Source: Tautonia marina (GTDB lineage: Bacteria > Planctomycetota > Planctomycetia > Isosphaerales > Isosphaeraceae). From it: DNA of 64,000 nt. Below, piece by piece: positions 20,067 through 22,952 of the stretch (its first letter is position 1; every line of letters begins with the position of its first letter). The position numbers and the translations under genes are program-made. Below the pieces are notes generated by a model. It was not told the DNA's origin. It made no database searches and was given only the letters and a program-made list of their open reading frames with translations. Where the stretch lies: positions 124,001-188,000 of the forward strand of contig NZ_WEZF01000001.1 in the NCBI RefSeq assembly GCF_009177065.1. Direction: 5' to 3'.

Positions 20067-20462
20067 ATGTCTACCTTCAAGACCCGACTCGCCTGGATGT
20101 CCAGCTTCGCGCTGGGTGGCGCCTTGCTCGTGACGGGTTGCGATGCTGGCCCCGGCGATGATCCCGCGATGGGCACCACGGAGCCCGCCTCGCCCGCCAT
20201 GCCCGGCGACGACACCGGCGGAATGGACCGCTCCGGCCTGATGCGCGGAATGCCCGGCGACGCCGTCGCAACCCCGGGCGGTTCTTCCACCGCCCCGGCC
20301 GACGAACCGGCCCCGGCCGACGAACCGACCACGATTGAGCCGCCCGCCGATGAGCCGGCCCCGCCCGCCGAGGAACCGGCCCCGGCCGAGGAGCCGACGG
20401 ACGAACCAGCCCCGGTCGAGCCTGAGCCGGCGGATCCGGGGGTCGAAGAGCCGAACTCCTAA
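20067..20462 (+). CDS. Acidic Pro/Glu-rich lipoprotein
   Basis: A 131-residue protein with a lipoprotein signal: basic start, hydrophobic 10-23 and lipobox LVTGC at about 21-25, so the mature N-terminus is a lipidated Cys. The rest is disordered, rich in Pro, Ala, Glu and Asp, with a degenerate repeat of the form [A/P]-[D/E]-E-P-[A/T]-P from about 75 to 125. No enzyme domain is present. It probably serves as a flexible envelope tether or spacer. A GGAG motif lies upstream in caaggagctgc. Confidence 0.75.
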   Translation: MSTFKTRLAWMSSFALGGALLVTGCDAGPGDDPAMGTTEPASPAMPGDDTGGMDRSGLMRGMPGDAVATPGGSSTAPADEPAPADEPTTIEPPADEPAPPAEEPAPAEEPTDEPAPVEPEPADPGVEEPNS

Positions 20463-21394: not shown

Positions 21395-22087
21395 TCACGC
21401 GGCCTTCTTCGCCCCACAGCACGCCCCGCAGGCCTTGGCCTCGTCGGCCTTGGCCTCGGCGCAGCACGCCTTGGCCTCGGCACAGCAGGTCTTCGCTTCG
21501 GCACAGCAGGTCTTCGCTTCGGCACAGCAGGTCTTCGCTTCGGCGCAGCACGCCTTCGACTCGGCGCAGCACGCCTTGGCCTCGGCGCAGCATGCCTTGG
21601 CCTCGGCACAGCATGCCTTGGCTTCAGCACAGCATGCCTTGGCTTCAGCAGCCTTCTTTGCGGTATCGCAGCAGGCCGCGCAGGCGTCGGCACAGCAGGC
21701 CTTGCAGGCTTCTTGATCCTTGCAGCAAGAGGCATCGCAGGCCTTGGCCTCGTCGGCCTTGGCTTCGGCGCAGCATGCCTTGGCTTCGGCACAGCAGGTC
21801 TTCGCTTCGGCGCAGCACGCCTTCGACTCGGCGCAGCACGCCTTGGCCTCGGCGCAGCATGCCTTGGCCTCGGCACAGCACGCCTTGGCCTCGGCGCAGC
21901 AGGCCTTGTCGTCAGTGACGGTGGTGGAGGTCAGCGTGACTTTGATCTCGGTGGCGCAACAGGCCTTCTTTGCCCCTTGGCTCAGAGCGCAGGCCGGGGA
22001 GGGGGTGTCGGCAGAGACGGGGTTTCCCGCCAGGGTGATCGCAACCAGGCAGGCACCCAGGGCGAACAGGGTCGATCGGCGCGTCAT
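21395..22087 (-). CDS. Secreted cysteine-heptad repeat protein (16 x CCAEAK[A/T])
   Basis: A 230-residue protein with a Sec signal peptide (hydrophobic 7-21, VSA-DT cleavage near 26) and about 47 Cys in the mature chain. Residues 63-111 hold seven and 152-214 hold nine copies of CCAEA(or S)KA/T. Each block ends with ADEAKAC and a CC pair, and a linker (112-151) carries more Cys (SCC, ACKACC, ACAACC). The spacing puts a Cys pair on one turn every seven residues, which would suit a helical or coiled rod lined with thiols. I infer metal (copper, zinc) binding or a disulfide-cross-linked envelope role; no known domain is recognised. ATG 22087 is preceded by gaggag at good distance. Antisense frames are open only because of the repeat. 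Confidence 0.85.
   Translation of the reverse strand: MTRRSTLFALGACLVAITLAGNPVSADTPSPACALSQGAKKACCATEIKVTLTSTTVTDDKACCAEAKACCAEAKACCAEAKACCAESKACCAEAKTCCAEAKACCAEAKADEAKACDASCCKDQEACKACCADACAACCDTAKKAAEAKACCAEAKACCAEAKACCAEAKACCAESKACCAEAKTCCAEAKTCCAEAKTCCAEAKACCAEAKADEAKACGACCGAKKAA
21446..21634 (-). repeat. 21-bp tandem repeat, nine units (C-terminal block)
   Basis: Nine consecutive 21-bp units encode CCAEAKA, CCAESKA or CCAEAKT. The three adjacent Thr-type units share one codon set (acc tgc tgt gcc gaa gcg aag), which differs from that of most Ala-type units and indicates recent tandem copying. Confidence 0.9.
21755..21901 (-). repeat. 21-bp tandem repeat, seven units (N-terminal block)
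   Basis: Seven 21-bp units in the order Ala, Ala, Ala, Ser, Thr, Ala, Ala types. The order matches the second block except that the latter has three Thr-type units instead of one, so the two blocks are products of one segmental duplication. Confidence 0.9.
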
Positions 22088-22463
22088 GAAAATCAACTCC
22101 TCAAAAACGTTAATGGAATTCGGTTGTGAGCATGGGCTGTGCGTGCTGGACGCTCTCCGACCGCAGACGGGACGCGGGCCGAGCCCTGCCGGGATCAACA
22201 CACGGATGATCGCACGGCGAACGCGGCGGTTCGTGTCGCGGCGACAACGAGTGGTGCAAGGCGCGCCCGGTCGGGTAGCGCGCAATCACCCGCGATCCGT
22301 CAGCGTTGGTTAACGGGGCCGTGGCAGTCGGTCACAACCGCAGGCCATGTCTCACTCCGACCCTCGATCCCTGTCGGAACGACAGAGCCGATCCTGGGGC
22401 GGATCGAGAACGCCTGGCAACGGCAACCGCGGCACTGGCCTCAAGAGGCGGAGGGACGCTCCG
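22088..22463. other. Intergenic region upstream of the cysteine-repeat gene, no gene seen
   Basis: This 376-nt gap contains the ribosome binding site (gaggag) and presumably the promoter of the repeat gene next to its start. I see no other ORF, RNA gene or clear hairpin. Confidence 0.4.
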
Positions 22464-22952
22464 CTAATTCCGCAACCGAGAGGTCGTGAGAATGAGGGGA
22501 ACGGAGAAGGGGGCCGGCCTCGGAAGACCGGTTGCAATCAGGAGGGATGCCGAGGGTGAGGAAGGTAGCGTGACCGTCGGCTCAAACGAAAGGCGAGTCC
22601 GCGACTGGTCTCGCGAGACGCTGGAACGAACCGACCGCTCACTCACCATCTGCGAGGCGTTCGTCACGCAACAGCAGGAGGAGGTCCGCGTCCGGCAGTG
22701 ACCGTCCGCCCCCGAGGAGTGAGGTGTGGGAGCCGCCGATCGGGTGGGAAGGGCGTTCAGAGGAGTCGTTTCGGAGAGGCAACACCGGGGCGTGGGTGGC
22801 TCCGGGGCATGGAAGGGCTCGCAATGATGCGTCGGGTGCGGCCCGGTGGGCAACGGGCAGGCGTCGACGGCAGGAAAGCCGCCAGCCATCAACCCGAGCA
22901 AAATGCCCAGGCCGATCCAGCCGCGTTCGCGTCTCCGGCAGCTTCGAAACAT
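22464..22952 (-). CDS. Putative secreted Cys/His-rich protein
   Basis: An open frame of about 162 residues from ATG 22952. It begins with a basic segment and a hydrophobic stretch (WIGLGILLGLMAGGFPAVDA) that looks like a signal peptide, followed by HPTHHCEP, RCCLSE and SSCCCVTN. The clustered Cys and His after a signal peptide resemble small metal-binding secreted proteins often found near copper functions. It is not recognised as a named family and the C-terminal half is low-complexity, so coding is only probable. An in-frame ATG at 22985 is an alternative start. It lies upstream of the cysteine-repeat gene on the same strand. Confidence 0.45.
   Translation of the reverse strand: MFRSCRRRERGWIGLGILLGLMAGGFPAVDACPLPTGPHPTHHCEPFHAPEPPTPRCCLSETTPLNALPTRSAAPTPHSSGADGHCRTRTSSCCCVTNASQMVSERSVRSSVSRDQSRTRLSFEPTVTLPSSPSASLLIATGLPRPAPFSVPLILTTSRLRN

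Follow-up and report, generated by a model that had tools for sequence, protein, structure and literature searches.

A cysteine-pair heptad protein and its secreted partner in Tautonia marina: a two-gene planctomycete cassette with a possible role in metal buffering

The window, by which we mean the whole stretch of 64,000 nucleotides of Tautonia marina DNA that was analyzed, encodes an exported protein of which almost one quarter is cysteine, and the question raised by this locus is what such a protein does. The gene and its surroundings contain the following features.

21395 to 22087, minus strand: gene 1, an open reading frame for a secreted CC-heptad protein of 230 aa, with its ATG at 22087.
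22010 to 22087, minus strand: signal peptide of gene 1, residues 1–26 (MTRRSTLFALGACLVAITLAGNPVSA), read from the sequence and kept in the syntenic orthologues.
21758 to 21907, minus strand: heptad array 1, residues 61–110, seven units of K[AT]CCAE[AS].
21629 to 21742, minus strand: central core, residues 116–153, ACDASCCKDQEACKACCADACAACCDTAKKAAEAKACC, the most conserved part of gene 1.
21449 to 21640, minus strand: heptad array 2, residues 150–213, nine units, a near copy of array 1.
22158 to 22180, minus strand: non-coding block GGCCCGCGTCCCGTCTGCGGTCG located 5' of gene 1 and kept in four species of the genus.
22464 to 22952, minus strand: gene 2, a small secreted partner of 162 aa, on the same strand and 5' of gene 1.

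The gene 1 product begins with MTRRSTLFALGACLVAITLAGNPVSADTPSPACALSQGAKKACCATEIKVTLTSTTVTDDKACCAEAKACCAEAK..., and reading of the sequence places the signal peptide boundary between ...PVSA and D. The protein contains 48 Cys, of which 47 follow residue 27, and the mature form of ~203 residues is made up largely of these 47 Cys together with 68 Ala, 29 Lys, and 21 Glu. The earlier note had described a secreted protein of about 200 mature residues with about 47 Cys and 16 CC heptads, and both the composition and the signal peptide, which is conserved in the syntenic orthologues, bear this out. There are 21 CC pairs, 16 of them within exact K[AT]CCAE[AS] heptads (seven at residues 63–105 and nine at 152–208), with the remaining pairs in the N-terminal part, the central core, and the C-terminus. 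The CC pair claimed for every seventh position is found within the two arrays but not between them, where a heptad-free core of ~38 residues follows the pattern C-x3-CC-x5-C-x2-CC-x3-C-x2-CC. The protein has no Tyr, Trp, or His and a single Phe, which lies within the signal peptide, and there is one copy of gene 1 in its genome. The statement that no described domain has this pattern was upheld, as no Pfam family, NCBIfam family, or PDB entry covers gene 1 or gene 2, and a Pfam search with gene 1 stayed empty at a cutoff of E = 10.

Tandem Repeats Finder (TRF) detects a single 21-bp array in the gene 1 DNA (positions 21447–21908, 22.3 copies, 75% matches), indicating that the heptads arose by DNA repeat expansion. 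This array, the near identity of its two halves, and the existence of two congeners without heptads would also be compatible with a weakly constrained protein expanded by slippage, in which the heptads as such are without function. We regard this explanation as very unlikely, because the 16 heptad units differ at pS = 0.55 but only at pN = 0.038, Cys is never lost, the core is strongly constrained, and different repeat units in four species hold the Cys number at 44–48. The second Cys codon of the 16 units is TGC in nine and TGT in seven, always encoding Cys. Comparison with the sister species G003 resulted in dN/dS values of 0.125/0.51 over the 75 N-terminal codons and of 0.039/0.54 within the core. 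The low pN, the codon switches that keep Cys, and the values against G003 together identify gene 1 as a real protein whose reading frame is constrained at the protein level, and a junk frame is ruled out by the same pS and pN values and the retention of Cys throughout.

When the window genome (G000) was compared with three relatives (G001, G002, and G003), the gene 2–gene 1 pair was found beside a YjbQ gene in all four. Protein searches recovered a clear gene 1 orthologue in G003 only, and the syntenic orthologues of G001 and G002 were located between the YjbQ gene and a quinone oxidoreductase gene. The G002 orthologue (288 aa, 44 Cys) is built of CDASCCEEEEACKACC cores (CDASCC...CC) and has no heptad array, and the G001 orthologue (260 aa, 44 Cys) is built of an eight-residue Gly-rich unit, CxxCCGDG, also without the heptad. 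G003 contains two copies of the core and the window gene one. What is conserved across the genus is the number of Cys (44–48 in the four species), the signal peptide, and the location, and the heptad itself is variable; the CC heptads expanded in a lineage-specific way in G000 and G003, with a different build in each. Matches in G055, G006, and G004 were dismissed as chance hits on Ala/Glu-rich or out-of-frame sequence. The GGCCCGCGTCCCGTCTGCGGTCG block was considered as the mark of a regulon and rejected, as a search of the G000 genome found one close copy and no second one at fewer than 3 mismatches.

These orthologues bear directly on the rod-like helix with a stripe of thiols that had been proposed as the essential feature of the protein. 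Two of them keep 44 Cys without any heptad, which removes the helix as a requirement. AlphaFold2 predicts long helices for the gene 1 protein at a pLDDT of only 45 and reaches a pLDDT of 50 for the G002 orthologue, values too poor for either model to be used. In other planctomycetes, the CC-x5 gaps often hold helix breakers, as in CCYPGSPCC, CCNPPSECC, and CCFAGSPCC, and with Pro and Gly between the CC pairs (YPGSP, NPPSE, FAGSP), a continuous helix cannot be the common principle. The principle shared by the wider class is the regular spacing of Cys pairs.

The upstream partner, gene 2, had not been mentioned in the earlier note. It is separated from gene 1 by 379 bp and has a signal peptide with a terminal Cys, a CC pair, a C...SCCC segment, and the C-terminal tail VPLILTTSRLRN. 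In the four species of the genus, the signal peptide ends in an invariant Cys, the CC pair, the single Cys, and the CCC run are kept, and the tail reads PL[IY]LxTxRLRN. An Rfam scan of the window gave sub-threshold matches only; one of these, to P26 (28.4 bits against a gathering threshold of 36), covers positions 22859–22927 on the minus strand at the start of gene 2 and is probably a chance match in GC-rich sequence. At 20067–20462 on the plus strand, the window encodes a predicted lipoprotein with a Pro/Glu/Ala-rich repeat tail (ADEPAPAEEP) and no family match.

Protein and core searches had suggested that gene 1 is an orphan of its genus, a view overturned by searching for the heptad at the DNA level. 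A DNA pattern of four successive CC heptads was present in 122 of 398 Planctomycetia genomes, partly in simple repeats, and its reversed control in clearly fewer. A second probe, the DNA pattern for CxxCCxxxCxxCC, was dropped as too frequent in TGTTG-type repeats, with a reversed control that was also busy. Reading of 39 chosen CC-heptad loci resolved two main groups, for neither of which a Pfam or NCBIfam match was found. Class A proteins are ~100–190 aa long and have a signal peptide and CC-x5 spacing all along, as in CCAKGQKCCAENAACCAAVQDCCKAGAACCDEVKACC; class B (PEP-type) proteins are longer and combine CCAPEPT or CCEPEPS units with GLF/RLK modules. Of 18 class A-type loci, 16 encode, 47–155 bp upstream and on the same strand, a small secreted Cys protein whose C-terminus is CVWRC or a related form; of the two loci without this partner, one is a fragment and the other lies at a contig end. 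A partner gene upstream is absent from all 19 class B loci. The class B proteins (L230–L236 and L240–L252, e.g. L251:7278–7793 and L234:6718–7404) are widespread, have Pro-rich CC heptads and GLF..RLK..C modules and match no family. A secreted repeat protein of yet another make, with 50 Cys (CCTPGxxxACCPKDAKDDCCKGKDCC), is encoded at L357:7080–8042 in the Isosphaeraceae genus G065.

The earlier note had suggested a profile search of planctomycete genomes, and CC-heptad secreted proteins indeed recur across Planctomycetia. Profiles of the two cassette genes run over 320 genomes gave matches in 81 and 77 genomes and 39 adjacent pairs, 26 of which (in 25 genomes) lie outside the profile seeds. 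In all 39 pairs the partner comes first on the same strand, with no other arrangement seen and a spacing of mostly 73–160 bp. Several more partner genes precede Cys-rich proteins that are too divergent for the CC profile. Over the whole genome collection, tblastn gave no confirmed match, and the CC pattern met mostly simple-repeat frames among the matches listed, from which no distribution was drawn.

The window pair resembles this cassette in gene order and strand, in the secretion of both products, in its CC heptads, and in a common tail; its 379-bp gap exceeds the 73–160 bp of most other pairs. Gene 1 matches the class A profile with E = 7.6e-8 and 44.9 bits; however, shuffles in which Cys was fixed and the other residues randomized reached a mean of 30.5 and a maximum of 40.6 bits. 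Because these shuffles come near the observed score, the match reflects mostly the CC spacing, and the sequences hint weakly at homology beyond it. For gene 2, the partner-family profile gave a best E of about 1, an hhalign probability of 3%, and no genus match, and since the profile fails to recover it, the tie to the partner family rests on the tail and the gene order. The pattern PLx[ILV]x4[WLF]R[CN], selected after inspection of the sequences, is found at the C-terminus of the partner in each of the four genus species and in 9 of the 16 seeds. It occurs in 32 of 12,613 frames, each of them a partner gene copy, with no unrelated frame among them. The window pair and the wider cassette are likely to share common descent, for which sequence alone falls short of proof.

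The evidence for a link to metals comes from genomic neighbors. In three genomes from three families (L226, L320, and L319, the last cut by a contig end), partner, CC protein, and a P1B ATPase follow one another on one strand, the ATPase carrying HMBD and YHS domains as identified by Pfam in L226 and by motif and sequence likeness in L320 and L319. These three cassettes look closely related and may represent one transferred unit. Partner genes without a CC protein directly precede CusB-type membrane fusion proteins of the HlyD_D23 family, one of which also has HMBD, and in the one case tested an RND pump comes next after the adaptor. Testing of 48 neighbors yielded nine HlyD_D23 proteins, a P-type ATPase, and an outer-membrane efflux protein. 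The metal-domain motif CPMHP occurs at 9 of 37 loci of partners without a CC protein, compared with 0 of 18 PEP-type loci, and at only 3 of 52 CC cassette loci. A secreted YHS-like protein adjoins the cassette in L256 and L257. Most other CC cassettes have unrelated neighbors, and a motif scan of the 64-kb window revealed no metal-transport motif near the window copy. In L345, L346, L371, and L388, the partner-family protein lies directly 5' of CusB-type adaptors and RND pumps. The partner-family protein is thus likely an unrecognized component of planctomycete metal efflux operons. Directly 3' of solo partners, proteins of ~300 aa with no Pfam match are encoded at L352:5983–6840, L359:2843–3769, L391:5534–6460, and L368:4449–5369, and the one in L352 resembles a His-bearing lipoprotein (GHKPTAHGGIVVPIG).

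Three functions had been offered for the gene 1 product, a metal sponge, a redox buffer, and an envelope polymer, and it is the genomic company of the wider cassette that favors the first. We consider it somewhat more probable than an even chance that genes 1 and 2 encode a secreted metal-thiolate buffer and its partner, the buffered metal probably being Cu(I) or another soft metal of this type. Metal binding by the gene 1 product is what we infer from the genomic neighbors of the wider cassette; the choice of metal, the periplasmic site, and the role of gene 2 are presumptive. The gene 1 product would be exported as a metal-thiolate sponge and the gene 2 product as its small exported partner. 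Once the signal peptide had been cleaved, thiolate clusters formed by the Cys pairs would take up several soft metal ions in the periplasm or envelope and so buffer the metal to a level that efflux pumps could handle. Candidate metals would be Cu(I) and possibly Ag(I), Zn(II), or Cd(II), and our guess of a Cu(I)/Ag(I)-type metal is favored by the YHS/HMBD P1B ATPases and CusB proteins among the neighbors of the cassette and partner genes. The number of CC units in an array would set the metal capacity, which could explain why arrays expand and contract by unequal exchange with Cys held at 44–48 in the genus. Against such a sponge, vicinal thiols would tend to form disulfides in an oxidizing periplasm.

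Vicinal CC pairs would also suit a protein that serves as a thiol-disulfide buffer or a store of reductant in the periplasm and maintains envelope enzymes in their reduced state. A DsbD-like gene before the cassette in L228, an MsrB-like gene after it in L258, and thioredoxin-like domains in two cassette neighbors are in line with this function. However, WCxxC-type motifs are found at 5 of 18 PEP-type loci compared with 6 of 52 cassette loci, and a match to an oxidoreductase family is absent, making a redox role quite improbable in our estimate. A structural role, in which inter-chain disulfides between CC pairs cross-link an envelope protein that owes its length to the repeats, has a precedent in planctomycete cell walls, which contain Cys-rich proteins with YTV domains (PMC8567305). 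The high Cys content and export signal are compatible with it, and the PEP-type CC-heptad group (CCAPEPT, CCEPEPS), which is without metal neighbors, looks structural. Gene 1, however, has neither a YTV motif nor any Tyr, the mature proteins of roughly 50–200 aa are small for a wall, and the fixed pairing is with a partner family elsewhere tied to metal efflux pumps. We therefore consider the structural role unlikely.

The exported metal-thiolate buffer may be part of a broader arrangement, proposed here tentatively, in which a planctomycete metal module couples a common partner with a CVWRC-type tail to one of two components, a CC-repeat sponge or an efflux pump. The sponge would then represent a new metal-thiolate architecture, with its capacity tuned by the number of CC heptads. 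If true, this would be a counterpart of metallothionein that acts outside the cytoplasm, has a partner of its own, and is spread across much of a phylum but missed by the family libraries now in use. Two groups of unnamed planctomycete genes would gain a function, a tunable metal-binding repeat would become available, and the reason why planctomycetes export so many Cys-rich proteins would become a testable question.

Literature searches yielded no description of the cassette or of the CC-heptad protein, which can be compared with four known or related systems. Like the metallothioneins (SmtA, MymT, and the eukaryotic proteins), the gene 1 product is very rich in Cys, which are spaced as CC and CxxCC, and has almost no aromatic residues. 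In contrast to these cytosolic proteins, it is exported and longer, with regular CC-x5 repeats and a secreted partner gene, and it matches no metallothionein family model in Pfam or NCBIfam. Csp1, an exported protein, is believed to retain Cu(I) in the periplasm (PMC7558416). The gene 1 product resembles the four-helix bundles Csp1 and Csp3 (DUF326) in being Cys-rich and, in models of low confidence, possibly helical, whereas its CC pairs stand in tandem heptads, it has no canonical Tat motif, and it gave neither a Pfam match to DUF326/Csp up to E = 10 nor a PDB match. The class A profile retrieved only spider and bug toxin knots from the PDB (E 0.2–0.6), taken as chance Cys matches. The YTV-domain wall proteins are likewise Cys-rich, exported, and restricted to planctomycetes (PMC8567305), and the gene 1 protein differs from them in the missing YTV motif and Tyr. 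The PEP-type proteins share the CC pair at every seventh position, the signal peptide, and the high Cys content; unlike gene 1, they are Pro-rich between the pairs, carry extra modules (GLF..K), and lack the partner gene at all 19 loci. The gene 1 product thus lies outside the metallothionein, Csp, and YTV families tested, its action would be likened to that of a metallothionein if our reading is right, and the new part is the two-gene arrangement.
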